In this document: piece after piece, positions 3,688 through 22,615 of the stretch
How the letters are laid out: each line of letters begins with the position of its first letter
Position numbering within the stretch: position 1 is the stretch's first letter
Assembly (NCBI GenBank): GCA_017505525.1
Contig: JAFVPB010000035.1
Coordinates: forward strand, 1 to 38,180
DNA length: 38,180 nucleotides
Direction: 5' to 3'
DNA from: Clostridia bacterium
GTDB taxonomy: Bacteria; Bacillota; Clostridia; UMGS1883
Program-made: the position numbers and the translations under genes
Notes under the pieces: model-generated
The model's input: only the letters and a program-made list of their open reading frames with translations
Databases searched by the model: none
What the model was told of the DNA's origin: nothing

Positions 3688-3706
3688 AATTTAGTTAATT
3701 TCCTCA

Positions 3707-3754
3707 AAAGAAGCTGTTTAAAAACCTCGTGTTTTTAAACAGCTTCTTTTTTTG
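3707..3754. terminator. Bidirectional terminator between convergent genes
   Basis: AGAAGCTGTTTAAAAAC pairs with GTTTTTAAACAGCTTCT around a short CTCGT loop. The plus strand continues with seven T after the stem. The minus strand also reads into TTTT, so it can end both the phosphodiesterase transcript and the histidine kinase transcript. Confidence 0.85.
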
Positions 3755-3774
3755 TTCTCAGTTTTTAATTGTAG

Positions 3775-5553
3775 CTATGTTGTGGGAAATTTCAATGTTA
3801 CTATAGTTCCGTTTTCATCACTTTTAACTTTAACACCGAATTCATTACCATAAATAAGCTTTATACGCTGGTTTATATTTTTTAATCCGACGTGTGAGCT
3901 TCCGAACATATAATCTTCATCAAGTGCTTCGGTAAGCTCTTTAAGTTTAGAGCTTTCCATTCCAAGGCCGTTGTCTGTAATTGTGATGATAATGTTTTTA
4001 TCCTCTTTTTTTATGTTCAGGTCGATATGGCCTTTCCTGCGGGTGGGTTTAATTCCGTGATAGAGAGCATTTTCAATAAGAGGCTGAAGCACAAGTCTTG
4101 GAGTTTTGCAATCTTCAAGCCCTTCTTCAACATTCCAGCTTATGGTGAAAATATCTTTGTGGCGAAGCTCTAATATTTTTGTATATTGCTCTGTGTAGGC
4201 AAGCTCGCTTTTAAGATCGGCAATATAGTTTGAAGTATCAATATTTCGCTTGAATAATTCTCCAAGAACTGTTAAAGCCTCTGAAATATCGTTTTCTCCG
4301 TCGAACTTATCTATTGCCATCCAGTTAATCGTGTCGAGTGTGTTGAAAAGGAAGTGAGGATTAATCTGCGATTGCAGCACAACAATCTGCGAGTGCTTTA
4401 AAAGCATAAGACGCATATCAAGCTCTTCCTTAAGTTGCTCGTTCGTTGCAAGTGCTTTAGATATATGGTTAAGAATATATGTGCTTTCATTCTGATGTGT
4501 GGAAGAGAGCAAATCGTTTGTTCTTTTTTCCGATGGAGTATCTATAAGCTCAATAATGTTTTCAATAGGCCTGAATGTTCGTATGCTTAAGTAAAATGCA
4601 CCGAAAAGCCCTACAATAAGTGAAATAGTCATAAGGATAAGAAGATAATCCGTAACAGACTTTGTAAGAGGGGTGAAAGAAGTCATCGGCACAATGCAGT
4701 GATAGTGCCAGTTGAAAAATTGCGACTTTATTTCAGAAAACATATACGTAGTATTTTTTGCTTCAAAGGTTGACTGATTATTTTCGCGAGCTTTGAAAAT
4801 ATTGGAAAGAATAGCGGTTTGTTCCACTTTTTTCAAAAGGTCGCGCTGTTCTTCGCTGTAGATAACAGTGTTGTTATCATCTGTTATATAAAACTTCTGT
4901 GTTGAAAGAGAGTTCATATCAAGCGAATAGAAAACGTCCGTCATTTCCTGAATGTTGATGTTTATAATAACGGCGCCTTTTTTATCAACATCGGTGGGGT
5001 ATATAGGATGAATGATGGTTATAAAAAACGGGTAGTAGTTGTTTTTCTTACGAGCAAATATAACGGTTTCTTCTTTGTTGAGATTTAAATACTCTTCATA
5101 CCAGCCACGGTCTGAAAAGTTTTTAAAATCAAATATGCCATAGTCTGTAAGAATGGTGTCGGCTCCGTCGCCATATATGTATATGGAATGAAGATGTTTA
5201 AGCGTGTTTGTGTAACTGTAGCAGTATTCCATAAGTGCATTTAAATCCGAATAATTTGTGGAATCGGGATTTGCGGCGTAGTGGTCAACCTTATCGAGAT
5301 GCGCTGTGTTTATTGTGAGTGTGCGCGCTTCATTCATTATGGTATCAGTAATATTTCGCACAGTGTAGGCATAATTCTGGTTGGTGCGTGAAATTTCATT
5401 ATACATCGATTTCATATTTCTGTTGTGAAAGAAAATACTTAAAATATCAAGCGGAATCATTACCACAAGAAAAATAATAATAAAATTTCGCACAAATAAG
5501 CTTTGCAGCTTATAGTTTTTTATGTTTTGAAAAAGCGATCTAAGGCGCGACAC
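3775..5553 (-). CDS. YesM-like membrane sensor histidine kinase
   Basis: 592-residue sensor kinase of the YesM/LytS class (His_kinase PF06580 plus HATPase). A short cytoplasmic N terminus precedes a membrane helix (about residues 22-43). An extracellular sensing region of roughly 260 residues and a second helix (about 303-325, ending in RTFRPIENI) lead to a HAMP-like linker. The phosphoacceptor motif is QINPHFLFNTLD with H400. ATP-binding features follow: LIENALYHG (N495), DNGLGM, and HVGLKNINQR. Start GTG at 5553 is used, with GGGGG about eight bases upstream. It lies 14 bases after the response regulator in the same operon. In Bacillus and Paenibacillus such pairs control carbohydrate uptake or degradation genes, matching the divergent locus here. 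The ligand is unknown. Confidence 0.93.
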   Translation of the reverse strand: MSRLRSLFQNIKNYKLQSLFVRNFIIIFLVVMIPLDILSIFFHNRNMKSMYNEISRTNQNYAYTVRNITDTIMNEARTLTINTAHLDKVDHYAANPDSTNYSDLNALMEYCYSYTNTLKHLHSIYIYGDGADTILTDYGIFDFKNFSDRGWYEEYLNLNKEETVIFARKKNNYYPFFITIIHPIYPTDVDKKGAVIININIQEMTDVFYSLDMNSLSTQKFYITDDNNTVIYSEEQRDLLKKVEQTAILSNIFKARENNQSTFEAKNTTYMFSEIKSQFFNWHYHCIVPMTSFTPLTKSVTDYLLILMTISLIVGLFGAFYLSIRTFRPIENIIELIDTPSEKRTNDLLSSTHQNESTYILNHISKALATNEQLKEELDMRLMLLKHSQIVVLQSQINPHFLFNTLDTINWMAIDKFDGENDISEALTVLGELFKRNIDTSNYIADLKSELAYTEQYTKILELRHKDIFTISWNVEEGLEDCKTPRLVLQPLIENALYHGIKPTRRKGHIDLNIKKEDKNIIITITDNGLGMESSKLKELTEALDEDYMFGSSHVGLKNINQRIKLIYGNEFGVKVKSDENGTIVTLKFPTT

Positions 5554-5567
5554 AAAAATGCCCCCTG

Positions 5568-7061
5568 TCAGTTAATTTTACTGTAGTCCGAAGGTGTTTG
5601 ACCTGTGTATTGCTTAAAGATTTTAGCAAAATACTTGCTTGATTTATATCCGCAGGCATCGCTGATTTCGTGAATTTTATACTTGTGTTCACGAAGCATA
5701 TCACAAGCAAGATTTATGCGGATTTTTGTGAGATAATCGGTGAGAGTTATCCCTGTATGCTGCTTGAAAAAACGGCTGAAATATACGGGGTTTAAGTATA
5801 CAAAACCTGCAATATCTTCAAGAGCGATATTTTCTGATATATGGTCGAAAATATATTTCTTTGCTTTGGCAATTGTTGGGTTTTCTATATCTTCACTGCT
5901 TGAAACCTTGTCGAAAATACACGAGAGTGCCTCTTTACCTTTTTCAAACAATTCAGACTCACTGTCGGCATCATCGAAAGATACTTGAGAAAACTGAAGA
6001 TCATCAAAAATAACGTTGCTGATTTTACCAAAAAGCTTCGACATAAGGTTTTTACTGTCGCTTATTGAAATGGATTGAGAGTAAATACGTAAATCGTTAA
6101 GAACTTCTGTTGCACTCTGGTAATCGTGAGATAAAATTGCCGAAAGAAGTGATTTCATTTTATCCTCAATAAGTGTTGAATCAGAAAAAGCTCCGCTTTC
6201 TCCGTTGTGGTAGTCGAGAAGTGAATAAATATTTTTACCTGAAAAAAGTACGTTGTAATTTGTATTCAGGGATAAAAGCTCAAGAGCGTTTTCTGTGATT
6301 GCGCCAAGGTCTTTACAAACGCTTTCAAAAAGCTCTTCGCAGTTTGAAAAACCGCTGAATTCCCCTAAATAAAAGGATTCCTGGCCACTTTGTGTAAGCA
6401 GAATAGCATCCTTTAGACCTGTAATTTCACGTAGCAAATTTAAAAGGCAATTATGGAGCTCATCTCCGCTGTAGTAACAATCTTCGCCGGGAAGAATGGT
6501 TAAAGAAAAAACCAAGCATTGAGTGTTTTCCAGAAATTCTTTTCCAAGGCGGATTTTTTCTGCACGAAGAGAGATTTCTTCGGGGCTTTTAAGTATTCCG
6601 AGAAGAATATCACTGTAGAAATCGCGCTTAACTATTGAAAGAAGAGTTTGAAGGTCTTCGCTATCTTTTTCGATGCTTTCGCGCTCGGTGCGTAATTCAT
6701 CAATAAGCTTGTTTACCGACTCTTTAAGCTCGGATAATTTTATAGGCTTTGAAAGATAATTCTTTACACCGTATTTTATAGCTTGCTTTGCATATTCGAA
6801 TTCCTGATAGGCACTTAAAAAAACCACCTTTGTATCGGGAGAATTTTCGAAAATAAATTGCGCCACGTCAATGCCGCTTTTTTCCGACATTTTGATATCA
6901 GTGAGGACAATATCTGAGTGATTGCTTTCTAAAAATTCGATAGCATCTTTTCCATCTGAAAAGACCCCTATTATATTAAGTTCGGGAAAAGAACGCCTTA
7001 TGTATTTTGATAATCCCTCGCGGATAGTTTCTTCATCATCAACTATAATTGTGTTAAACAT
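5568..7061 (-). CDS. YesN-like response regulator, REC plus AraC-type HTH
   Basis: 497-residue DNA-binding response regulator. Residues 1-120 are a receiver domain with acidic pocket VDDE (D8, D9), phospho-acceptor D55 in LTDIKM, and the conserved Lys in YLSKPIKL. A middle region of about 270 residues is variable, as in other YesN proteins. The last 100 residues are an AraC/XylS helix-turn-helix pair, with ALEDIAGFVYLNPVYFSRFF as the first helix-turn-helix and ISDACGYKSSKYFAKIFK as the second. I place the start at the ATG at 7061 because GGAGG lies five bases upstream. A TTG four codons earlier would overlap that site. The partner kinase is the next gene in the operon. Divergent genes at 7384 onward are the obvious targets, but no binding site can be proven. 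Confidence 0.93.
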   Translation of the reverse strand: MFNTIIVDDEETIREGLSKYIRRSFPELNIIGVFSDGKDAIEFLESNHSDIVLTDIKMSEKSGIDVAQFIFENSPDTKVVFLSAYQEFEYAKQAIKYGVKNYLSKPIKLSELKESVNKLIDELRTERESIEKDSEDLQTLLSIVKRDFYSDILLGILKSPEEISLRAEKIRLGKEFLENTQCLVFSLTILPGEDCYYSGDELHNCLLNLLREITGLKDAILLTQSGQESFYLGEFSGFSNCEELFESVCKDLGAITENALELLSLNTNYNVLFSGKNIYSLLDYHNGESGAFSDSTLIEDKMKSLLSAILSHDYQSATEVLNDLRIYSQSISISDSKNLMSKLFGKISNVIFDDLQFSQVSFDDADSESELFEKGKEALSCIFDKVSSSEDIENPTIAKAKKYIFDHISENIALEDIAGFVYLNPVYFSRFFKQHTGITLTDYLTKIRINLACDMLREHKYKIHEISDACGYKSSKYFAKIFKQYTGQTPSDYSKIN

Positions 7062-7094
7062 ATTATCCTCCAAAAAACTTCAAATCTTACGTTA

Positions 7095-7123
7095 ATTGTA
7101 CTATAAAAAAAGTTGAATTGCAA
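7095..7123 (-). promoter_or_regulatory. Sigma-A promoter of the YesN-YesM operon
   Basis: Read on the minus strand: TTGCAA (7118-7123), 17 bases, TACAAT (7095-7100). The start would fall near 7088, about 27 bases before the ATG at 7061. It shares the 310-base intergenic region 7074-7383 with the divergent binding-protein gene. Confidence 0.7.
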
Positions 7124-7274
7124 GTAAATAAAAAAGCATATGCAATTAATGGGAAAATACGAACATATTGGGAAAAAGTTATGTTTTTGAGCCTTAAATT
7201 AACGTATTTTTACAAAAGAGGTAAACAGAGGATACGGATGTAAAAATAATGGCGTTGTGAAGAAAAAGAAGCTA

Positions 7275-7309
7275 TGTTACAATTATGTTACAGTGTATTA
7301 CTGTATAAG
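7275..7309 (+). promoter_or_regulatory. Direct-repeat box and weak -10 upstream of the binding-protein gene
   Basis: TGTTAC (7275-7280), five bases, TGTTAC (7286-7291), that is two exact half-sites one helical turn apart. This is a full match to the WalR-type consensus TGTWAH-N5-TGTWAH, though other regulators also use direct repeats. A -10-like TATAAG lies at 7304-7309. The position where a -35 should be (about 7281-7286) has no match and lies inside the repeat, as at activator-dependent promoters. The leader to the ATG at 7384 would be about 70 bases. The rest of the 7074-7383 gap shows no further recognisable element besides the minus-strand promoter. Confidence 0.4.
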
Positions 7310-7383
7310 GGGGTAGTGCACCCAAAAATAGTTTGAAATTAATTTTATTAATATAAATTTTTAATTAACAGGAGGAATTCTTT

Positions 7384-8922
7384 ATGAAAAAAAGAATGCT
7401 TGCAATTATGCTTGCAATGGTGCTTGTAATAGCTGCTTTTGCAACAGGTTGCACAAAGAAAGAAACCGCAGCCGATAACGGCGGAGAGGTAACACTCAAG
7501 TGGCTCCTTGGCGGAAACGGACAGCCAAAGGATGGAGAAATGGTTTGGAAAGAATACAACAAACAACTTCAGGAGTATCTTCCAAACACAAAAGTAGATT
7601 TTGAGGTTATTCCTTTTTCAGATTTTGCTGAAAAGTGGCGTCTTATGGCAGCTGCACAGGAAGAGGTTGACCTTCTTTGGGTAGGCTGGATGCTCGACCT
7701 TTATGAAGAAGCAAACAAAGGCTCGCTTCTTGCTATGGACGATTATCTTCACCTTGTTCCCGATCTTACGGCAGAACTCCCCGAGTATCTTATAGACCTT
7801 GGAAGAGTTAAGGGAAAGCTTTATGCAGTTCCCAACTATCAGATTCAGACATCTCTTCCTTACGGTACAAAAACACAGAAAGCTCTTGCAGAAAAGTATC
7901 TCGATATTGAAGCAGTTACAAAGAACTTTGATAAAGATACATACCCTGTGAAAGAAGACTACCAGGTTTTTGAAGATTATCTTGCTAAGCTTAAAGAGGC
8001 AGGAAAGCTTCAGAAGGGCGTATCAAAGAGCTTCCTTGATTACATTCTCGGTTGCATAGGCAGAGGCCCATGGATGGAAACAGTTGCAGGAAATGCCCGC
8101 ATTGATGTTAGGGATCCTGAACTTAAGGTTTACGATTTTCTGACAGATTTCCCTGAAAACGAAGATTACTTTGCAATAACTAACGACTGGTTCAAGAAGG
8201 GCTATATCCGTAAGGATATCCTCTCGGTTCAGGACCATAAGGCAGATGAAAACAAAGAAGACGGATATGTTCTGTGGTCGCATTCATCATTTAAGGGTGC
8301 AAGCGAAACCGACTCGGCAAAGTATGGATTTGATATTCTTTCAATTCCCACACATCAGCATATCTACATTCCGTTTACAAGACCTTCTTCAAAAACGGGT
8401 ATTTCAAGAACAACTAAAAATCCTGAACGCAGCATCAAGCTTCTTGAACTTATGAATACCCAAAAGGGTAAAGACCTGTTCAATCTCCTCACATTCGGTC
8501 TTGAGGGAGTTCACTACGAAAAAACAGATAAAGAAAACATTATAAACTGGCTGGGCGATTCAGCACCTGGCGCAAGTGCAGATGCTCCTTATGGTTTCAA
8601 CAACTGGGCAATCGGTAATATCTTCAACGGTTACGAAACACAGTACGATGCAGAGGGCTGGAACGACTATATCAAGAACGATGTTAACGTTAATGCAGAG
8701 CCTTCTCCGCTTATCGGATTTACACTTGATACATCTCCCATTAAGCTTGAACTTGCACAGTACAGTGCTATTATGAAGGAATACGAATACGTAACACTCG
8801 GTACAAACGACAACTGGAAAGAGCTTATTGCAGAGCGTAATGCAAAGCTTAAAAAAGCTGGCAGTGATAAGATTGTGGAAGAGGTTCGCCGCCAGATTGA
8901 AGAGTGGAAAAAAATAAAATAA
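7384..8922 (+). CDS. Extracellular solute-binding lipoprotein (family 1, DUF3502-like C terminus)
   Basis: 512-residue ABC-type sugar-binding lipoprotein. The signal peptide ends in lipobox ATGC with the lipid-modified Cys at residue 23, followed by a short polar linker. The mature part has the family 1 pattern (VTLKWLLGGNGQPKDGEMVW, then VDLLWVGWMLDLYEEA). The last 80 residues (YEYVTLGTNDNWKEL ending in VRRQIEEWKK) resemble the DUF3502 tail of LplA-like proteins, which bind oligosaccharides. Shine-Dalgarno AGGAGG is eight bases upstream. It would sit on the outer face of the membrane, lipidated by Lgt (encoded at 29074). No permease or ATPase gene lies beside it, which is odd: it must use a transporter encoded elsewhere or act as a sensor partner for the divergent YesM kinase. 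Confidence 0.9.
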   Translation: MKKRMLAIMLAMVLVIAAFATGCTKKETAADNGGEVTLKWLLGGNGQPKDGEMVWKEYNKQLQEYLPNTKVDFEVIPFSDFAEKWRLMAAAQEEVDLLWVGWMLDLYEEANKGSLLAMDDYLHLVPDLTAELPEYLIDLGRVKGKLYAVPNYQIQTSLPYGTKTQKALAEKYLDIEAVTKNFDKDTYPVKEDYQVFEDYLAKLKEAGKLQKGVSKSFLDYILGCIGRGPWMETVAGNARIDVRDPELKVYDFLTDFPENEDYFAITNDWFKKGYIRKDILSVQDHKADENKEDGYVLWSHSSFKGASETDSAKYGFDILSIPTHQHIYIPFTRPSSKTGISRTTKNPERSIKLLELMNTQKGKDLFNLLTFGLEGVHYEKTDKENIINWLGDSAPGASADAPYGFNNWAIGNIFNGYETQYDAEGWNDYIKNDVNVNAEPSPLIGFTLDTSPIKLELAQYSAIMKEYEYVTLGTNDNWKELIAERNAKLKKAGSDKIVEEVRRQIEEWKKIK

Positions 8923-8965
8923 CCGACTTTTGCAGTGGAAAATTTTAAAAGTCAGGAGGATTTAT

Positions 8966-11587
8966 ATGAGAAAACGTATATTTGCAATGATTATTGCAAT
9001 GCTCATGCTACTTTCCATTGTGCCATCAGCTATGGCAGAGGGGAGCGACACTGTTGAAATCTATGTTTCCGTTTCCGGTAACGACAGTGCTGCGGGAACA
9101 AAAGATGCTCCTTTAAAATCCCTTACAGCAGCAAGAGATAAAATAAGAAGCCTTAAGGAAAGCGGCATAGCACCTGCGGGCGGGTTTGTGGTTTATCTTC
9201 GCGGCGGAGATTATCAGCAAACAGAATGCTTAGAACTCGATAGCCGAGATTCGGGCACAAAGGAAGCGCCTGTTGTGTATCGCGCTTATCCGGGGGAAAA
9301 GGTAACGCTTGTAGGCGGTGCAAGTATTCCCGGAAGTTCCTTTAAAAAGGTAACAGATAAAACAGTGCTTGAAAGAATTATCGATGAAAATGCACGTGGA
9401 AAAGTTATGGTAGCAGACCTTGCTGCTTTAGGATTTACCGAATTTGGCGAGCCATTCTGGCCCGGTGCATACAGCTATATGGCAAGCTGGCTTACAGAAC
9501 CAAGCGCAGCATCGCCCGAGCTTTTCATCGATGGAAAGGTGCAAACCCTTGCACGTTATCCCAATGAAGGCTATATGAAGGTTAAGGAAGTTTTCCATGC
9601 GGGCGCAGCACCAAGATACTGGGAGCCCGATATGGCAGGCGATGCAAGATATAAGCCTGAAGGTCAGCGCGACCCTGAAGACACATTTGAAATATCTTTC
9701 GATGATAACCGTTTCCTCAAGTGGACAAAGGTTTCACCAAGAACGGCTATTATGTCGGGCTATTTCTGGTACGACTGGGCAGACCATAGCGTTCCGATTG
9801 AAAAGGTTGAGGGCGGAAAGATTTATTCATCCGAGCCAAGCTGGTACGGCGTAAGAACAGGGCAGAGGCTTTTCGTTTTGAATCTTATCGAAGAGATTGA
9901 TATTCCGGGCGAATATTACCTCGACAGAGAAAATGCTCTTTTATACGTATATCCTGAAAAGGATTTAACAGATGCCGATATTAAATTCTCGCTTCTTGAA
10001 AACGACCTTGTTCACGTAGACGGAGCAGAGCATATCACATTTAAAGACCTTAAAATGACAGCTATGCGTTCAAGCGCAGTTGTTATCAACACAGGTAATA
10101 ACATTGAAATCCGTGATTGCGAAATTGAATATACTGCCGATTATGCAGTTGTTATGGAGCCGGCAACACGTGAATGCCGTGTGATAGATAGCTATCTTCA
10201 CGATGTAAACGGCGGCGTGTATATGCGAAGCGGAGATTACCCAACTCTTACCGAGGGTAACAGTAAGGTGGTAAATAACGTTATTACACGTTTCTCGAGA
10301 ATAAATAAAACATACACTCCTGCAGTTCAGCTTCAGGGTGTTGGTAACCACATTCAGCACAACGAAATGTATGATGCACCTCACTGTGCAATTCAGTATG
10401 CAGGTAACGAGCACGATATTTCCTATAACGAAATATACGATGTTTGCCAGCAGGCAGACGATATGGGTGCAATTTACTCTGGCAGAAGCTGGGTGCAGCG
10501 CGGAACAAAAATTCACTATAACCACATCCACGATGTGCGCACCGACTCAAAGGCAACACTTGGTTTGTTTATGATTTATTTCGACGACAGACTTTCACAG
10601 CAGTCGGTTGTGGGTAACCTTATCCGTAACTGCGACGGCCATGCATTCTTCTCGAACGGCGGACGCGACCATGTGTATTACAACAACATTATTATAAATC
10701 AGGAAAAATGCTATAAGGTAGGCGCTTTAATTCCGCCCGACCCGATGGCAATTGACCCTGTAAACCTTATGAATTCACTTAAAACAGTTCCATGGCAGAA
10801 TGAACAGTGGACAAAGAAATATCCGCTTCTTTCAACAATTCTTGATATTGAGGGCGATGCAACATACCCCAATAACAACTATGCGGGAAATAACCTCCTT
10901 GTAAACTGTGCACCAAGAATAGTTGACGCTGAATATATCCACCCCGAAGCTTATGCGCGTGGAACATTCGACAAGGATTACGAAGTAGCAAGCATAGAAT
11001 TTGTGGATGAAGAAAACGGAATTTATCTTCTTCCCGAGGATTCACCCGTATTCAAAGAGCTTCCCGATTTTAAAAACCTTCCCGTAACAAGAATGGGAAC
11101 ATATTCTCACCGCGCAAAGGCGAGAGTGAATGAAGCCGTAACAATGGCAGTGGGAAGCCCCAACGTAATCAAAAAGGGAGAAAACACCTTTATCGATACT
11201 GAAAATAATGCAGTTGTTCCCGTTATAAAGGATTCAAGAACTTTCGTTCCACTCCGCTTTATTTCAGAGGCGTTTGGTATGGACGTTCAGTTTAATAACG
11301 AAACACGTGAAATCACAATTTCAGGAAACGGAATAGTTTTAAGCCTTTTCCCGGGAGAAGCATCAATCAATAAAAACGGAGTGGCAACACAGATAGATGC
11401 TCCGGCATATATCTCGGGCGAGGGAAGAACAATGGTTCCTCTTCGCGCGATAAGCGAAATGCTTGATAAGAAGGTTTACTGGAACAACCGTGGCCTTATT
11501 ATCATAAGCGATACAGAAAATATCATCAACGATAAGGCTGATGATAACTTAGTAGATTATCTCTACAGTGAATTAATTAACTATTAA
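8966..11587 (+). CDS. Secreted right-handed beta-helix protein with copper-amine-oxidase-N-like repeats
   Basis: 873-residue exported protein, probably a polysaccharide-active enzyme. Residues 1-25 are a signal peptide ending near AMAEG. Residues about 30-110 have the opening typical of beta-helix enzymes (IYVSVSGNDSAAGTKDAPLK, then GFVVYLRGGDY). The central part (about 330-560) has parallel beta-helix rungs rich in NxI/HDIxYNEI units, with a conserved segment QADDMGAIYSGRSWVQRG. The overall pattern recalls unclassified beta-helix glycoside hydrolases such as GH141, but I cannot assign a family or substrate. Residues about 760-860 hold two copper-amine-oxidase-N-like units (RTFVPLRFISEAFG and RTMVPLRAISEML), common on clostridial surface proteins. 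Start is the ATG at 8966, seven bases after AGGAGG; an upstream in-frame ATG at 8930 lacks such a site. Confidence 0.82.
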   Translation: MRKRIFAMIIAMLMLLSIVPSAMAEGSDTVEIYVSVSGNDSAAGTKDAPLKSLTAARDKIRSLKESGIAPAGGFVVYLRGGDYQQTECLELDSRDSGTKEAPVVYRAYPGEKVTLVGGASIPGSSFKKVTDKTVLERIIDENARGKVMVADLAALGFTEFGEPFWPGAYSYMASWLTEPSAASPELFIDGKVQTLARYPNEGYMKVKEVFHAGAAPRYWEPDMAGDARYKPEGQRDPEDTFEISFDDNRFLKWTKVSPRTAIMSGYFWYDWADHSVPIEKVEGGKIYSSEPSWYGVRTGQRLFVLNLIEEIDIPGEYYLDRENALLYVYPEKDLTDADIKFSLLENDLVHVDGAEHITFKDLKMTAMRSSAVVINTGNNIEIRDCEIEYTADYAVVMEPATRECRVIDSYLHDVNGGVYMRSGDYPTLTEGNSKVVNNVITRFSRINKTYTPAVQLQGVGNHIQHNEMYDAPHCAIQYAGNEHDISYNEIYDVCQQADDMGAIYSGRSWVQRGTKIHYNHIHDVRTDSKATLGLFMIYFDDRLSQQSVVGNLIRNCDGHAFFSNGGRDHVYYNNIIINQEKCYKVGALIPPDPMAIDPVNLMNSLKTVPWQNEQWTKKYPLLSTILDIEGDATYPNNNYAGNNLLVNCAPRIVDAEYIHPEAYARGTFDKDYEVASIEFVDEENGIYLLPEDSPVFKELPDFKNLPVTRMGTYSHRAKARVNEAVTMAVGSPNVIKKGENTFIDTENNAVVPVIKDSRTFVPLRFISEAFGMDVQFNNETREITISGNGIVLSLFPGEASINKNGVATQIDAPAYISGEGRTMVPLRAISEMLDKKVYWNNRGLIIISDTENIINDKADDNLVDYLYSELINY

Positions 11588-11607
11588 TATAATTGGAGGA
11601 AAATTTT

Positions 11608-14103: not shown

Positions 14104-14112
14104 TTAATTATA

Positions 14113-14148
14113 GTGCAGTGGCAAAATTAAATGTTTTTGCCACTGCAC
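14113..14148 (+). other. Strong stem-loop between the two modular surface-protein genes
   Basis: GTGCAGTGGCAAAA (14113-14126) pairs with TTTTGCCACTGCAC (14135-14148) around a short loop: 14 consecutive pairs starting ten bases after the stop codon. It has no U tract downstream, so it is a poor terminator. It may set differential mRNA stability or partial attenuation between 11608-14103 and the following gene. Confidence 0.65.
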
Positions 14149-14214
14149 GCAAGAATGTTTTACAGGATAATTTGTACAGGGTATTTTTTACCCATATTCA
14201 AGGAGGACAATTTG

Positions 14215-17200
14215 ATGAAAAGATTATTATCTTTATTTACTATCCTCTGTTGTGTTTTCAGTTTTGTAACGTTCCCCGTGGCAGTAAAAGCCGAGGTAGT
14301 TACATTCAGCGATAACTTTCAAACAGAAACCGACACAGTGCCTGATAACTGGTCTGTTGCGGCAACGAGTTTAAATACAACTGCAACGGTTGAAACCGAA
14401 AACGGCAATAAATTTCTTCGCCTTGCAGCAACTGCACAGCGCTGGTCTAGTGCGCTTCCATCAGTTGTAACAAAGGAGAATATGATTTCGGTGCCACTTA
14501 CAGATAAAGAAGTTCTTATTAAATATAAGACAAGAATGAGCAGTGAAAACAGCACTAAAATTCAGTTTTATATGCGTGCAGGCGTTCCGGGAGGAGCAAG
14601 CTCTACAACAGAGATTACAGGAAACAACTATAAGGTTGTGGAAATAAGAAGAAACGGCGATGCAGAAAGAACCTCGCTTTACTACTACACAACAAACACA
14701 TGGCCGAGCGAGCATACCGGTATATCATTTAACAAGGATGTGTGGTATGAGGTAGAAGCTCTTATAAATCCAACGGATGAAACGATCGTATACACCGTTG
14801 GCAATGAAACAGACGGCTATATTACACTCGATGCGAAGATGGAAATAAACAGCTTATCATCGCTTGAACTTATTGATAACCTTGCAGCTGTGATGTGCTA
14901 TGCAAATGCAGGTGCATATATGGATATCGACGATGTATATGTTGGATATCCCGAGGAAACCGAAGTTCCCGAAACCCCTGAAGTTCCCGAAATTCCCGAA
15001 GAACCACAGGAACCTGAAGAAGTAGTTAATAAAGAGAGATACATTCTTTATGATGACTTTGAAAGCGACGGAACAACACCCCAAAACTGGCAGCTTTACA
15101 GTGGTACGCTTGCAACAGTTGAAGTTAAAGAGGAAGAGAATAATAGCTTCCTTCGCTTAAAAGCAACAGAGGGAGTTGTAAATAACGGCTCTAACACAGC
15201 AAAGCAGCCGATTGCTATTACAAAGCCCGGAGTTATGGACTTTAAGCTCAGCGAAACTGAAAAGCTTGTGATAAAAGCAAAGCTTCGCCATAACGAAACG
15301 GGAAGCGGCAATATGAGCTCGCTTCGCCTTGGATATCCCTATCCCGAGGCTAATTTCACGGATACTGTTTCAGGAAGTTATGCAATATTCGGCTTTCGTG
15401 AAAACACAGTCCGTCATCTTGACTATGACGGCAGCCACACACAGTCGTGGCTTGACACTGTGGCAAGTTACACAACATCAGTAGACAAGTGGTATGACAC
15501 TACAACAGTAATTAATCCTGCTGATATGACATACACACTTACAATTACCGATGGCACAAATACTAAAACTGCTACAGGTAATATGACAAGAACAGGCACA
15601 GATTCATTCTTTAATGAATTAGACCTTGTAAAATCACTTGCATTAAAAATAACAGGTGCTTCATCTTCAAGCACCTATATGGACGCAGATGATGTGATAG
15701 TTTATAAGGTTTATACAAGTCCCAAGGCAGATCTTGTGGCAGATAACGGCTACATTGCAGCAAATGCAAGCTCGGTCAATGTTAAATTCGATAAGGATAT
15801 GGACGAAGCTACCCTTACCGAAACCACAGTTTTACTTGAAGATGCTGATGGTGGAGAGTTAACTTATGAGGGAAGCTATGATAAGGAAACAAAAACATAT
15901 AAAATTGTTCCCGATGAGGCTCTTATCCCCGGAGAAACCTACTATGTGAAGCTTGATGAAGAAATCTATGCTAACAACATAGGCGAGATAGGCGACACTG
16001 AATACGATGGCGGTAAGCTTACAGGAACAAAGGAATTTTCCTTTGTTGTAGCAGCGCCAAAGAGCGATAACGCACGCCTTTCAGCAATCACTGTAAATGG
16101 CGAAGAAATCGCAGATTTTGATGGCGATACTACAGCGTATACAGTGAAGCTTATGTATGCAGATGATTTGGAAATGCCCGTAGTTACTGCAACAACAGAG
16201 GATGCAAAAGCTAAAGCACCGCAGATAACTTACCCCGACGAAGTGGGAAAAGATATTACTATTAAATCTGTTGCAGAAGACGGCATAACAGAGATTATCT
16301 ATACTGTTTCTGTTAAGCTTATTGGCAAGGAAATGGCAAAACTTGGTGAAAACCTTGTTGTTAACCCCGGCTTTGAAACAGGAAATCTTGACGGTTATAC
16401 CTCAATGGATACCTTCAAGATAGAGTCGTCCACTGCTCACACCGGCTCTTACAGCGGAAAGAGCGTTGGAAGAACAAATCCGCAGTCGGGCTTTTACAGA
16501 CAAAACGTAAATGTTAAGGCAAACCGTACATATCTTCTTTCGGCGTGGTTTAAAACATCATCAGGAACTCAGCAGTACGAAATATATCCAAACACATCAA
16601 ATGTTGAACGTCCGTACCGCGAAAGTGAAACGGTGGCAGGCTCTCCCACAGAGTGGACAAGAGTAATCCTTACAATTGTTCCAAAGATTGACACTCCTAT
16701 CACACCTTCAGTTCTTTCGTGGACAACAACAGAGGATTACTATGTAGATGATATATACGTTGGAGAGATTAAGCCATCTGTTGTTTACAATGGCATTAAT
16801 ACGGTTGCAGTAGACAGAAGCAAGGAAGTTCGCAGCGAGCTTAAAGCCGATATTGTAAACCAGTTTGGAACAAAGAACGGTCTCGCATCTGCTGAAATTA
16901 CAGAGTGGAGAATAGTTTCTGCTCCTTACGGTGTTTCGACAAGCGGAAACGAGCTTATTGTTTCAAGAGAGGCAGAAGCGGGTACAGCAGTAATCGATAT
17001 CGTGTTTGAGCCTAATTATGTTGGTGCAAACCGCGTGCTCGATGAAGATGTTCCCGAATGGACAAAGAGAATAGAAATTACTGTTACAGATGATACAGAG
17101 CCTATTCCTTATGCAAAAGAGCTTAAAATTCTTGGCGAGGTAGTGCTCGATGGAGAGCTTGAGGCAGACTACCGTTATTATCATAATGGTGGAGTGGATG

Positions 17201-18609
17201 AAAAGCTTCCTGCAAATATAGTGTGGCTTTACAGCGACAGCGCTAATGGTACATACAATGAAATCCCTGAAGCTACAGGTGAAAAATATATTGTGGAAGA
17301 GGACTACGTGAATAAATTTATCCGCGTAAAGGTTACTCCTGAAGCAATCGACGGCACTGTTGGACCCAGCGCAACAAGCAATTACGTTTGTGCGCAGGCA
17401 CTTCCAACTGCAACAGTAACTGTTGAAACTCCACAGGCTTACGCAGTAGGCGACACGCTCAAGGGCGATTATGTATACAGCGATATCAACCTTGACAAAG
17501 AGGGCGAGACAACCTTCAGATGGTTAAGATTCAATAAAGAAACAGAAAAATATGAGGCTATAGTGGGAGCAACAGGAAAAACCTATGTTCTCACAGAAGA
17601 TGATTGCTTCACAAAGCTTAAATTTGAAGTTAAGCCTGTAAGCACAAAAGAACCAACAAGTGCAGAAGATAATTTGTTCTACAGTGAAGAAATCAACGGA
17701 CCCGATAAGCCATATATTGAAAACCTTAAGATAAAAGTAAGCGGCAAGATTGCTACAGTAAGCTATGATTACAAGCATCCAAACGGAGTAGCCGAGGGTG
17801 CAACCATCATTAAATGGACTGTAGACGGAAAGTCAAAGGGCGAGGGAGCAAGCTGTATTGCATCAGAAAGCTCCACAATAAAGGTTGAGGTTACACCTGT
17901 TGCTTCAAAAGAACCAAGCAAGGGAGAAACAAAAACTGCAACTAAAAAAGGTGAGTCAACACCGCAGTCAGGCGGTGGCGGCGGCGGAAAAGTTACTGCC
18001 GGCAGCATCGTAATTCTTCCCGAGGTTACAGTTACACCTGAAAAGAGCGAACAGTTCCTTACAGGAAGTGAAGCTAACCACTGGGGCGCAAGTGCTATTG
18101 AATGGGCAATTGCAGGCGGATATATGGAAAAAGAAGCAGACGGCCTCTTTAATCCGGATATGGAATATAACAGACAAAACTTCCTTACAAGCGTATTAAA
18201 GATGGTTGGAATGAAAGGTTCGCTTTATAAAGACACATTTAAAGATGTTGAAAAAGGTGAATTTGCAAATCTCTTACAGTCGGCGGTTGATGCAGGAATA
18301 ATCAGTGTTGACGAAAACTTCAATCCTCAGAGAAATGTTTCAAGAGAAGAAGTTTGTAAGATAATTGTTACTTCTCTTACCTATATGGGTCTTGATAAGA
18401 ATGCTAAGGGCGATATCACTAAGTTTACCGATAGCGCAGAAATCGGTGCGTGGGCAGAAGAATATATAGCGAAAATGCTTGGAACAGGCCTTATGGTTGG
18501 TACTGACGATGGCAGATTTATGCCGAAGGGTACTCTTACAAAGGCGCAGACTGCAACAATACTTCGCAGACTTTCCGAGTATGTGGAAAATGTTAAGGAG
18601 GGTAAATGA
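14215..18609 (+). CDS. SLH-anchored multidomain surface protein
   Basis: 1464-residue exported protein, probably a surface scaffold or adhesin rather than an enzyme. In order: signal peptide (1-25); two modules related to those of the previous gene (about 28-245 and 275-502), joined by a Pro/Glu linker with PEVPEIPEEPQEPEE; a Big_5-type Ig domain (503-612); a cadherin-like sandwich (614-702, TVNGEEIADFDGDTTAYTV); a CBM4/9-like region opening with NLVVNPGFETGNLDGY (712-852); a beta-rich region; two and a half copies of an Ig-like repeat (about 965-1242); a Gly-rich linker (SGGGGGG); and three SLH domains (about 1279-1337, 1340-1399, 1400-1459) that bind pyruvylated secondary wall polymer. The start is the ATG at 14215 with AGGAGG; a longer frame from 14131 runs through the intergenic hairpin and is not credible. 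Its TGA overlaps the next start. Confidence 0.88.
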   Translation: MKRLLSLFTILCCVFSFVTFPVAVKAEVVTFSDNFQTETDTVPDNWSVAATSLNTTATVETENGNKFLRLAATAQRWSSALPSVVTKENMISVPLTDKEVLIKYKTRMSSENSTKIQFYMRAGVPGGASSTTEITGNNYKVVEIRRNGDAERTSLYYYTTNTWPSEHTGISFNKDVWYEVEALINPTDETIVYTVGNETDGYITLDAKMEINSLSSLELIDNLAAVMCYANAGAYMDIDDVYVGYPEETEVPETPEVPEIPEEPQEPEEVVNKERYILYDDFESDGTTPQNWQLYSGTLATVEVKEEENNSFLRLKATEGVVNNGSNTAKQPIAITKPGVMDFKLSETEKLVIKAKLRHNETGSGNMSSLRLGYPYPEANFTDTVSGSYAIFGFRENTVRHLDYDGSHTQSWLDTVASYTTSVDKWYDTTTVINPADMTYTLTITDGTNTKTATGNMTRTGTDSFFNELDLVKSLALKITGASSSSTYMDADDVIVYKVYTSPKADLVADNGYIAANASSVNVKFDKDMDEATLTETTVLLEDADGGELTYEGSYDKETKTYKIVPDEALIPGETYYVKLDEEIYANNIGEIGDTEYDGGKLTGTKEFSFVVAAPKSDNARLSAITVNGEEIADFDGDTTAYTVKLMYADDLEMPVVTATTEDAKAKAPQITYPDEVGKDITIKSVAEDGITEIIYTVSVKLIGKEMAKLGENLVVNPGFETGNLDGYTSMDTFKIESSTAHTGSYSGKSVGRTNPQSGFYRQNVNVKANRTYLLSAWFKTSSGTQQYEIYPNTSNVERPYRESETVAGSPTEWTRVILTIVPKIDTPITPSVLSWTTTEDYYVDDIYVGEIKPSVVYNGINTVAVDRSKEVRSELKADIVNQFGTKNGLASAEITEWRIVSAPYGVSTSGNELIVSREAEAGTAVIDIVFEPNYVGANRVLDEDVPEWTKRIEITVTDDTEPIPYAKELKILGEVVLDGELEADYRYYHNGGVDEKLPANIVWLYSDSANGTYNEIPEATGEKYIVEEDYVNKFIRVKVTPEAIDGTVGPSATSNYVCAQALPTATVTVETPQAYAVGDTLKGDYVYSDINLDKEGETTFRWLRFNKETEKYEAIVGATGKTYVLTEDDCFTKLKFEVKPVSTKEPTSAEDNLFYSEEINGPDKPYIENLKIKVSGKIATVSYDYKHPNGVAEGATIIKWTVDGKSKGEGASCIASESSTIKVEVTPVASKEPSKGETKTATKKGESTPQSGGGGGGKVTAGSIVILPEVTVTPEKSEQFLTGSEANHWGASAIEWAIAGGYMEKEADGLFNPDMEYNRQNFLTSVLKMVGMKGSLYKDTFKDVEKGEFANLLQSAVDAGIISVDENFNPQRNVSREEVCKIIVTSLTYMGLDKNAKGDITKFTDSAEIGAWAEEYIAKMLGTGLMVGTDDGRFMPKGTLTKAQTATILRRLSEYVENVKEGK

Positions 18610-21233
18610 TGAAAAAGTTAATAAAGATTTTATCATTCCTTATGGCACTTCTTGTTTTCAGTACATCGGTGCTTGCCGAAAGCCCGAAAGAAACGGTTAA
18701 AAATATGATGGATAACGATCTTGATTATTTTGAAGATGTTTACCGTTTCGACCTTTCTATCCAGAAAGAAACCCAAGATGATACAAAGGAAAAATTAACT
18801 AACCCAAATGCAGTATTCATGGTGCTTACACTTGGCATTATGAAGAATATGCCTGATGGAACATTCAGCGAAAATCTGATTGTTACATACCCTGAATTTG
18901 CATCAATGGTATACACTTTATCGGCAGGAACAGAAAGCGGATTCGTTCCCGACTACAGCTCTTTCGATAACAGCAATATCACAGTGGGAGAAGCTACTTA
19001 TCATGTGCTTAATGCTCTTGGCTACACAATGGGAAGAGCATACGGTTCGTTTGATGAAATGGCTTTGGCACAGAAAATCGGTCTTTTCAAGGGCGGAATT
19101 ATGAAAAAAGAATCGCTTGTAACACGCGGATTTGCGGCACAACTTTTCTATAATGCTCTTGAAATTGATATGATGGCTCAGGTTTCTTACGGAGAAAATG
19201 ATAACTATTCAATTCAGAAGGGCAGCACTCTTTTAAGTGATGTGTTTAACGTTGAAAGAATAGAAGGAACCGTGAATGCAACTCCCGGAATAAACATTTA
19301 TTCAACGGTTCTTCCTGAAAACGACCAAATTCAGATCGACAGAGCAGTTTATATAGCGGGAAAGCTTGACTTTACAGATTTTCTCGGAATGTATGTAGAG
19401 GGATATGTAAAAATTGATGATAAAAACAACTATCCCGTTGTACTTGGCCTCAGAAAGAGCGACAAGGGAAATTCGATAAAGATTAAGCTTACAGATATTG
19501 AATCTGTAAGTGATACTGCAATAAAGTATTACGATGGAGAAAAGCTCAGAAGCATAAATATTTCAGGAATAAAAAATGTGCTTTACAATGCTGATTCAAA
19601 GGTTAACTACAAGTTTACCGAATCACTCATCGATAAAGAGGGCGAAATCGTATTTACAGGCGGAAAGAACGGCAAATATACAAATGCAATTATAAAAGAT
19701 AAGGCAAGCTACACAGTACGCCATATTGCAGAAAAGAATAAAAAGATATTCCTTAACAACGGTCTTCTCTTTAACGGAAGCGATTATATCGACGTTTCAA
19801 ATGAGGATGACGACAGATTTATAAGAATAGTTAAGGATGGAGCTATTATTTCCCTTGCAGATATTAAGGTGAACAATGCTATAAGCGTTATTCAGCGCGC
19901 AGATAAGCGCTATACTTATATCGAGGTAAGCGACAAAACTGCTTCGGGTGTTGTAAATGCCCGTAACGATAATATGATTACAGTTGGTAATAAGGATTAT
20001 TACGTTACATCTCTTTATGAAGAAGCTTCACAGCTTGAAGATTCAACTGCACGTAACTTTGTGCGCGGCGACAGCGGTGTTTTCTATCTTACAGACGACG
20101 GATTTATTGCAGGCTACAGTGGTAACGACGGGGTTAAATACGGTATTATCTCTTTGTTTGGTAAAACCGACGGAATGGACCCTGAGCTTAAGGTAAAGAT
20201 CTTCACTGAAAACAGTGAGTGGATTACAGTTATGGCTGCAAAGAAAATTGAGCTTGATGGTAAGGAAATGACTAAGCTTGAAGCAGCGGATATTCTTGAT
20301 GCTGAAAAAGAAGATATTGAATATAACCCTGTAAGATTTAAGCTTAATGCAGATGGAGAGCTTGTATTACTTGATACGATGAGCGAAACAGAATACAGTG
20401 ACCACAAAGAGGCGCTTTCTCCTGATAAAAAGGTAACGTGGTCGGGCGAAACGAACTGGACATCTCCTTACGTTATTTATAGTGGAAGCGAAAGCTACAG
20501 TATTTTTGATGCTAAGATGTTCATTGTTCCTGAAGAAGCTAAGCGTGATAACGAAGAACTTTATTCAGTGCAGAAATCCACAAGTATTTCTTCAGGCGCA
20601 CATATCTCTCTTGACATCTATAACCGCGATGAATTAGGCCATGCTGCACTTTTAGTAAGAAGTGCAGGCGGCGGATCAGACCTCTATGGCTCAAGAATTA
20701 TAGCAATAGAAAATGTTCGTCATTCAATAAGTGATGATGGAGACCGCGATGTTATCATAGGATATCAGCATAACGGATCATCACCCGGCGTAGGTACGTG
20801 GGATTCGGTAACGCTTGCTATAAGCGATACGCTTCTTAAGAAAGAACCCGATATAAGCTTTAAACCCGGAGATGTTATTCTCTATGCTAAAGATTCAACG
20901 GGAAAAGAGCTTATAAACTACAAGCTTCTTGTTCGCGACGGAGCTTTGTATCCGGGAATAAATACCACACAGTTTGATGCTAACACAAACATCACATACG
21001 CCTACGGCATAGCTAATGCATTCAATTTTGATTCATCAGCTAAGCTTATGCAGGTTAAAGCAGATCTTGGTGGCGGCATATTCGGCACTTATACATTTAT
21101 ACCGCGCGGAGTTGTGGAATGGAAATCTTCCGAGAAGCGCTTCAACTCAATTTCACTTGATGAAATTTCCCCCGGTGAAAAGGTGCTTGTTTCAGGACAG
21201 GGTTGCCACGTTAGTGCAATTGTGTTAAGATAA
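18609..21233 (+). CDS. SLH-type surface protein, translationally coupled
   Basis: 874-residue exported protein. A signal peptide (to about residue 23, VLAES) is followed by degenerate SLH repeats at about 55-180, with readable cores LGIMKNMPDGTF..VTYPEFA and LVTRGFAAQLFYNAL. The remaining 690 residues are beta-rich and without known catalytic motifs. A segment with FYLTDDGFIAGYS and KIELDGKEMTKLEA resembles FFVDYTGQIAAIKY and KIELDGKEVNASAA in the SLH protein at 29981, so the two are distant paralogues. The start overlaps the upstream stop (ATGATGA): AAGGAGG at 18595-18601 suits the second ATG (seven-base spacing) better than the first at 18606. The coupling suggests the two SLH proteins are made in a fixed ratio. 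An S-layer-like role is likely; the exact function is unknown. Confidence 0.8.
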   Translation: MKKLIKILSFLMALLVFSTSVLAESPKETVKNMMDNDLDYFEDVYRFDLSIQKETQDDTKEKLTNPNAVFMVLTLGIMKNMPDGTFSENLIVTYPEFASMVYTLSAGTESGFVPDYSSFDNSNITVGEATYHVLNALGYTMGRAYGSFDEMALAQKIGLFKGGIMKKESLVTRGFAAQLFYNALEIDMMAQVSYGENDNYSIQKGSTLLSDVFNVERIEGTVNATPGINIYSTVLPENDQIQIDRAVYIAGKLDFTDFLGMYVEGYVKIDDKNNYPVVLGLRKSDKGNSIKIKLTDIESVSDTAIKYYDGEKLRSINISGIKNVLYNADSKVNYKFTESLIDKEGEIVFTGGKNGKYTNAIIKDKASYTVRHIAEKNKKIFLNNGLLFNGSDYIDVSNEDDDRFIRIVKDGAIISLADIKVNNAISVIQRADKRYTYIEVSDKTASGVVNARNDNMITVGNKDYYVTSLYEEASQLEDSTARNFVRGDSGVFYLTDDGFIAGYSGNDGVKYGIISLFGKTDGMDPELKVKIFTENSEWITVMAAKKIELDGKEMTKLEAADILDAEKEDIEYNPVRFKLNADGELVLLDTMSETEYSDHKEALSPDKKVTWSGETNWTSPYVIYSGSESYSIFDAKMFIVPEEAKRDNEELYSVQKSTSISSGAHISLDIYNRDELGHAALLVRSAGGGSDLYGSRIIAIENVRHSISDDGDRDVIIGYQHNGSSPGVGTWDSVTLAISDTLLKKEPDISFKPGDVILYAKDSTGKELINYKLLVRDGALYPGINTTQFDANTNITYAYGIANAFNFDSSAKLMQVKADLGGGIFGTYTFIPRGVVEWKSSEKRFNSISLDEISPGEKVLVSGQGCHVSAIVLR

Positions 21234-21276
21234 TGAAATAAATTAGTTTGTTTCATTCTGAATAGGAGGATGTCGT

Positions 21277-22569
21277 ATGAATAATGAGATTAAAGTGTTC
21301 TTACCGCAGAAATTTGATTTGGTAAAAGGCGATTTATTTCAGCTCTTTTACCGGGGGGTAGTAGATGCACCGGATCCATTCGTCTATGACATCCTTTCTG
21401 TTTGCGAAAAAGGCAGAAATTTTCCAAGATATTTTGAATTTCTTCCAGAAGACGAAGGAGAATTTGAGCTTGAAATTTATGTGTATGGTGCAGGAAAAGA
21501 GCTTTTGGGTAAAGGGAAAACCATTTTAAAGGTTACAGATTCGAAACCTGCCGAAAAAAATGTAAATATTCTTTGCATCGGTGATTCTCTTACTGCAGGC
21601 GGAGAATGGGTTGGCGAAGCGAAAAGAAGGCTGACAGAAAACGGAGGAGAGCCTTTCGGTGTTGGGTTTGACGGTATTAATTTCGTTGGAAACTGCAATA
21701 AAAACGGAGCTTCGTTTGAAGCCTTTGGTGGATGGAAGTGGGAAAGCTTTTACAGTTGCGTGCATTCCTCTATGTGGATTGAATGTGAGCACGATAAAAC
21801 GGCAGTAGATCAGCATTCTTTGTGGGAAGACGAGCGCGGAAGCTTGTGGGTTCTTGAAACTATTGAAAAAGAGCGCCTTAAGTTTAATCGTGCATACCTT
21901 CATGCAGAGCCTGTTCCCGAAAGCGGTGTTCTTAAATGCTTTGGTTATGCCACAAACACTTCTCCGATAAAAATTAAAAAAAGCTTTGAAGAACAAAACA
22001 GCCCATTTATCAATCCCGAGACAAACGAAGCGGATATAAGATGGTATCTTGATAAAAACAATATAGATAATCTTGATTTGGTTTATATTCTTTTAGGTAC
22101 AAATGGATGGAAAAGTGAGCCTCATGAGGGCCTCACAGACGAGGAATACGTAAAACTCCATGCTGATAACGGAAGAAAGCTCGCAGATTTAATTCACGAA
22201 GCTTCCCCCAATGCTAAAATAAAGGTTTTGGGACTAATCGGATGCAGCGTGAATGGGGGAACGGGCACAAGCTATGGTGCAAGGCTTCCTTATTGCGACG
22301 ATTATGGATATATGCACTTTACAATGCTTTTAAATAAAGCATATGAAGAGTGGACAAACGAAGAAAAATATAAAGACTTTATGGAGTTTGTTAATCTTTC
22401 CGGTCAGATAGATGCAGACCATGCTTTCCCATGTGAAGAAAAGAGAGTTAACACAAGAAGCACTGCTACAGAAACAATAGGTACTAACGGTGCTCATCCT
22501 TCTTATGAGGGATATATGCAGATTGCAGATGCAGCGTGGAGAAATATGGTAGCATCATTAAAGAAATGA
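21277..22569 (+). CDS. SGNH/GDSL-type hydrolase with N-terminal beta domain
   Basis: 430-residue hydrolase-like protein. Residues 1-90 look like an all-beta accessory domain; the SGNH fold begins at NILCIGDSLTAGG with the nucleophile Ser104. The block III motif is LLGTNGW and the C-terminal block is TNGAHPSYEG with His407. Most SGNH esterases have Asp three residues before this His; here it is Asn404, so either the family uses a Ser-His dyad or another acid helps. No signal peptide is visible, so it is predicted cytoplasmic. The family includes carbohydrate acetyl esterases, so deacetylating imported oligosaccharides fits the locus, but the substrate is inferred. It starts 43 bases after the SLH gene, with AGGAGG upstream, and a strong terminator closes the series. 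Confidence 0.85.
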   Translation: MNNEIKVFLPQKFDLVKGDLFQLFYRGVVDAPDPFVYDILSVCEKGRNFPRYFEFLPEDEGEFELEIYVYGAGKELLGKGKTILKVTDSKPAEKNVNILCIGDSLTAGGEWVGEAKRRLTENGGEPFGVGFDGINFVGNCNKNGASFEAFGGWKWESFYSCVHSSMWIECEHDKTAVDQHSLWEDERGSLWVLETIEKERLKFNRAYLHAEPVPESGVLKCFGYATNTSPIKIKKSFEEQNSPFINPETNEADIRWYLDKNNIDNLDLVYILLGTNGWKSEPHEGLTDEEYVKLHADNGRKLADLIHEASPNAKIKVLGLIGCSVNGGTGTSYGARLPYCDDYGYMHFTMLLNKAYEEWTNEEKYKDFMEFVNLSGQIDADHAFPCEEKRVNTRSTATETIGTNGAHPSYEGYMQIADAAWRNMVASLKK

Positions 22570-22577
22570 TATTAAAA

Positions 22578-22615
22578 AAATACGGAGATGTTTTTTAGCA
22601 TCTCCGTATTTTTTT
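22578..22615 (+). terminator. Terminator of the surface-polysaccharide gene series
   Basis: AAATACGGAGATG (22578-22590) pairs perfectly with CATCTCCGTATTT (22599-22611) around TTTTTTAG and runs into a T tract. Confidence 0.9.

Follow-up and report, generated by a model that had tools for sequence, protein, structure and literature searches.

In the NgtS-NgtP1-NgtP2 system of Streptococcus pneumoniae, the solute-binding protein (SBP) comes with two permeases (PMC5215778), and one MsmX/MsmK-type ATPase serves several Gram-positive sugar transporters (PMC9601137). Another arrangement is that of CuaDSR in Ruminiclostridium cellulolyticum, where the gene for the SBP CuaD stands beside those for a kinase and a regulator, CuaD binds the CuaS ectodomain, and transport is carried out by CuaA (PMC10384115). 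The locus that we describe lies on contig C9 of a 2.4-Mb draft genome of a Clostridia bacterium (G000; 71 contigs, 95% complete); the whole contig, 38,180 bp long, was analysed and is referred to as the window. Like CuaDSR and the XylFII-LytS system of Clostridium beijerinckii, it has a permease-less SBP gene beside genes for a histidine kinase and a regulator of the YesN/AraC family. Unlike the window locus, CuaDSR is not known to have a surface polysaccharide-handling operon behind it, and while binding of CuaD to CuaS is proven, the likeness of the window is one of gene order alone. The window SBP also resembles those of LplB/YtcP/DUF3502-SBP transporters such as NgtS, the C-terminal half matching the NgtS structure 5swa (E = 4.9e-24), but NgtS lies with two permeases and the window locus is without them. 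With MsmX/MsmK sharing it has in common a component used by several loci, a single MalK-type ATPase, while here a permease pair appears to be shared as well. Sharing of the permease pair is less common for sugar transporters.

The unit extends from 3706 to 22615, between two terminator-like repeats, and comprises eight genes, all with intact, long frames. On the left it is bounded by a 20-pair terminator-like inverted repeat (3706-3750) between a convergent GDPD gene and the kinase gene, and on the right by a 17-pair palindromic terminator-like repeat (22574-22615). The minus strand carries a YesM-type sensor kinase (3775-5553), which has His_kinase and HATPase_c domains and an N-terminal membrane-spanning ectodomain of ~255 aa, beside a YesN-type response regulator (5568-7073) with a receiver and an AraC HTH, so that the two have the make-up of a YesM/YesN two-component system. 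This pair diverges across a 310-bp promoter region (7074-7383) from six plus-strand genes, the gaps between which are short or absent. The first of the six encodes a type I SBP (7384-8922), whose DUF3502 score of 65.2 bits against a cut-off of 24.4 and signal peptide with a lipobox at Cys23 identify it as a lipoprotein of the DUF3502 (LipO/YtcQ/NgtS-like) kind. It is followed by a secreted right-handed beta-helix protein with a GH141-like N-terminal part and a C-terminal Cu_amine_oxidN1 domain (8966-11587; ORF from 8930), a secreted multi-module protein without a Pfam match (11608-14103; ORF from 11593), a secreted surface protein with CBM_4_9, Big_5, IG_AIR9 and C-terminal SLH domains (14215-18609; ORF from 14131), its ~880-aa secreted partner, whose gene overlaps the preceding one (18606-21233), and, as the last gene of the operon, an SGNH/GDSL hydrolase (21277-22569). 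The ATG codons at 8966, 11608 and 14215, judged from the signal peptides, are likely the true starts. The genes named in a preliminary description of this DNA are thus present where it had placed them, and strong terminator-like repeats close the unit at both ends.

To the right of the locus follows a core block, rdgB-M16-M16-lgt-SLH (with ispG-polC where seen), that is common to other members of the genus; since the left neighbour of rdgB differs in those members, the stretch that holds the locus is lineage-specific. The block includes a second large SLH protein (29981-32956), which adjoins lgt in the genus members examined and is a candidate for the main S-layer or anchor protein. Rfam gave no match, ncbifam gave no specific name, and a promoter scan found no more sites than in shuffled sequences. 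Among the papers searched, none combined YesM, YesN and solute-binding protein in those terms, and a single one, devoted to another subject, named DUF3502.

None of the genes on this 38,180-bp contig matched permease or ABC ATPase families, including BPD_transp_1, and a tblastn search with 69 related permeases found no remnant in the window (best E = 0.014), nor was one found in the sister locus on contig C36. The absence of a permease and an ATPase noted in the preliminary description was thereby confirmed for the entire contig, and the window does not have the two permease genes beside the SBP that would make a complete CUT1 oligosaccharide ABC transporter. As the window is a whole contig, permeases could still lie beyond its ends, although the terminator-like repeats close off the unit. 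That an ATPase is missing is unremarkable for this class of transporter, since a single MalK-type ATPase was present in every one of the five genomes examined for it. As to the permeases, it had been stated that the binding protein usually lies next to them. In 59 genomes sampled across the class, we counted matching permB genes within 6 kb of a DUF3502 SBP: 31/36 such SBPs in 16 other genomes had one, versus 5/18 in G000 and a second genome, G036 (p = 3.5e-5 by Fisher's test, and 1.8e-4 when contig-cut cases are dropped; G000 and G036 had been picked after the fact).

Six DUF3502 SBPs are encoded in the genome of the window, and five of them form one group with 52-59% identity to the window SBP. 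The copy on C36 repeats the whole plan, with YesN-YesM divergent from the SBP, the beta-helix protein, the SLH protein and its partner, and it likewise has no permeases. Partial copies of the cassette are found on C14 and C44, and C56 has an SBP at its contig end. The remaining SBP, on C23, shares only 29% identity with that of the window and adjoins permB and permC. A large repertoire of glycan-binding SBPs, with several in clusters, is also known from the Family 1 SBP expansion of Bifidobacterium longum subsp. infantis, which belongs to a different phylum (PMC3057974).

We compared the gene order with that in related genomes, using a set of 14 chosen for the similarity of their SBPs to that of the window. 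The cassette recurs with a permease pair between YesN/YesM and the SBP, and its full order reads YesN-YesM, permB-permC, SBP, GH141-like beta-helix protein, large modular/SLH proteins and ~880-aa partner; this permease-bearing plan is present in other genomes of several families. The orthologue of the C36 copy in a goat-cecum Clostridia MAG (L051 in genome G401), which is 70% identical in the SBP, 73% in the beta-helix protein, 67% in YesM and 62% in the SLH protein, carries the permB-permC pair between YesN and the SBP, which argues that the permeases were lost and not primitively absent. The orthologous locus also encodes, between YesN and permB (L051 6261-7874), a 537-aa protein without a Pfam match that is absent from the C36 copy. 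On another G401 contig, C15, the order is YesN-YesM-permB-permC-SBP-beta-helix, and the SBP is 49% identical to that of the window. In the window itself, the 310-bp divergent region occupies the position of permB-permC in relatives and retains no remnant of them. Ten secure permease-less SBPs need ten state changes on the SBP tree, so that loss of the permeases was recurrent; this strict set omits contig-cut cases and SBPs with permeases 10-16 kb away, a first count having given 12 changes. Permease-less copies with divergent YesN/YesM include three in G036 (C34, C13 and C65). The preliminary description had considered that relatives might carry the permeases and that only this locus had lost them; relatives do carry them in this position, but the loss recurs in several lineages.

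Matching permeases elsewhere in the genome were searched for with a permB profile built from DUF3502 loci, on which permeases of its own type score above 320 bits and other CUT1 permeases nearly all below 300 bits. In the genome of the window the profile found the permB on C23 and a cut copy, of which the first 92 residues are encoded by the last bases of C14. This C14-end permB groups with the permB of G401 C11 (support 98/92), that is, the permease sitting with the C36 orthologue. Upstream of the SBP on C56, itself 56% identical to the window SBP, the contig end bears a permC fragment coding for the 45 C-terminal residues, and these have their highest identity, 81%, to the permC of G401 C11. 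On the simplest reading, the two fragments would belong to one type I pair split by an assembly gap. Permeases elsewhere, which the preliminary description had proposed to look for, are thus present in the matching type I subtype, as two contig-end fragments. Two other pairs were considered as partners: that on C23, though of the DUF3502 type, differs in subtype and already has an SBP, which makes it a second choice; an orphan pair on C26 was rejected because it falls outside the DUF3502-type clade, in another group of CUT1 permeases. The C26 pair (L030 7652-9596) has no SBP adjoining it.

SBP and permease trees co-vary. In a mirror-tree analysis of 28 loci with both genes, SBP and permB distances correlated with r = 0.75, a value reached in 0/1000 within-genome shuffles (mean 0.33), and three subtypes agree across the SBP, permB and YesM trees. 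The tree-predicted partner of the window SBP is the C14-end permB, at rank 1 of 34. The prediction fails for the type I SBPs on C21 and C50 of G036, for which the nearest permease is of type II despite a type I pair on C88. In comparison-set genomes at least 85% complete, every permease-less SBP has a subtype-matched permB in the same genome; the exceptions without one are G153, which is 65% complete, and G017, where the SBP is contig-cut. Some permease pairs lie apart from SBPs that they match. On G401 C14 a pair stands alone among unrelated genes (L113 8936-10806) and corresponds in tree position to the permease-less SBP C15b, and on G320 C7 a pair with no SBP within 6 kb (L125 5246-7074) matches the SBP on C70. 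In G104, three tandem DUF3502 SBPs follow one permease pair (C61; L082 9941-14874), and a fourth close SBP copy, on C75, is without permeases.

Among the surface proteins, the beta-helix protein matches the structure 5mqp of the GH141 beta-helix glycosidase BT_1002 (E = 6e-10) with a likeness limited to its N-terminal region, residues 42-135, only ~95 residues aligning by sequence. This resemblance hints at a possibly pectin-like substrate and at no more than that, as do neighbours of the sister copies, among them a GH106-like protein on C14, a protein resembling GHL6/fucosidase on C44 and, on C23, a GH28 enzyme. Of the SLH-coupled pair previously described, the SLH domains are borne out by Pfam in the product of 14131-18609, but the partner (18606-21233) has no Pfam match. 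The two modular surface genes (11593-18609) are paralogous over ~520 N-terminal residues, which are 32% identical, a tandem duplication within the operon. The ~880-aa secreted family without a Pfam match adjoins an SLH protein in most cassettes, across several families, as in the window and at L026 225-2873 and L051 18215-20869. Structure predictions from two-row alignments were too poor for a fold search both for this partner (pLDDT 32) and for YesM (pLDDT 51), and a PDB sequence search with the partner or with the SGNH protein gave no match. The SGNH protein had been counted as an esterase of the surface system; it scores 26.0 bits in Pfam, below the cut-off of 32.9, and since it has no signal peptide it is probably cytoplasmic and outside any surface display. 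A probably cytoplasmic enzyme in this operon fits import better than display, and it would be compatible with the import of an acylated oligosaccharide.

On this evidence, we consider it somewhat probable that this locus represents a satellite version of a modular cassette for glycan uptake and that its SBP feeds a shared type I permease pair. In such a system, YesM/YesN would sense a sugar signal and switch on the divergent operon, and the SLH and beta-helix proteins would bind and process a complex, perhaps pectin-like, polysaccharide at the wall. The lipoprotein SBP would capture the released oligosaccharides and, the permease pair having been lost from the window copy, would dock on the subtype-matched pair found elsewhere in the genome, import through this shared pair being powered by the single MalK/MsmX-type ATPase. 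Of the two roles suggested in the preliminary description, feeding a shared transporter gains support from the own-subtype permease pair elsewhere in the genome and from the co-variation of the SBP and permease trees (r = 0.75), while surface sensing and display without transport is not favoured over transport, the relatives carrying the permease pair in this very position. More broadly, and more tentatively, we propose hub-and-satellite uptake in Clostridia, in which one permease pair per subtype may serve several SBPs, each with its own YesM/YesN and wall proteins, and satellites may arise by repeated permease loss.

The main alternative, which we hold to be rather unlikely, is that the SBP is a dedicated sensor which, loaded with sugar, binds the YesM ectodomain and takes no part in transport, import being left to other SBPs. 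A sensor-only SBP would give an identical gene order: the window has the CuaDSR/XylFII-LytS kind of arrangement, with the SBP gene adjoining those for kinase and regulator and no permeases, and SBP and YesNM share a divergent promoter region in the window, in C36, in G401 C15b and in G036 C34, C13 and C65. CuaD, which binds the CuaS ectodomain, provides a clostridial precedent with a YesN-family regulator (PMC10384115). However, the window YesM falls into one clade with the YesM proteins of permease-bearing type I loci, and because the same YesM family adjoins permease-bearing copies, the sensor did not originate when the permeases were lost. Furthermore, the SBP is very similar to paired transport SBPs and retains the sites conserved among them. 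At 51 positions conserved among paired SBPs, the retained fraction is 0.87 in permease-less and 0.88 in paired SBPs (0.83 by leave-one-out), a retention that is not proof of docking, since such sites are important for folding and for binding sugar as well. The probably cytoplasmic hydrolase encoded in the operon also speaks against a pure sensor. A dual role, in which the SBP both signals to YesM and delivers to the shared permease, appears improbable to us; nothing in the anatomy of the locus opposes it, and SBP-dependent kinases (PMC10384115) and shared transporter components (PMC9601137) are both known, but in CuaDSR sensing and transport fall to two distinct SBPs.

Two further explanations seem to us very improbable. 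A locus in decay, its permeases gone and the remainder on its way out, would agree with their absence here and presence in relatives, but the eight intact long frames, the clean boundaries, the kept conserved sites of the SBP and the recurrence of the permease-less state in other genomes all oppose it. An assembly that skipped permeases really present at the locus is conceivable in a 71-contig draft in which C14, C56 and C44 break at or near permease or SBP genes, but C36 of the same genome shows the same permease-less junction, and the separate genome G036 has three further copies with divergent YesN/YesM and no permeases. Repeats usually give breaks and not clean joins.

Were satellite SBPs to share a permease pair, a locus-by-locus tally of transporters would misjudge the import range of these Clostridia, and loss of a single such pair should shut down several glycan systems together. 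Should the hub-and-satellite organization hold, new glycan specificities would be gained without a new transporter. If instead the SBPs are sensors, these loci would provide a ready set of natural SBP-kinase pairs. On either reading, the paired and permease-less copies of the cassette within the same genomes offer a clean comparison for the function of an SBP without its permease.
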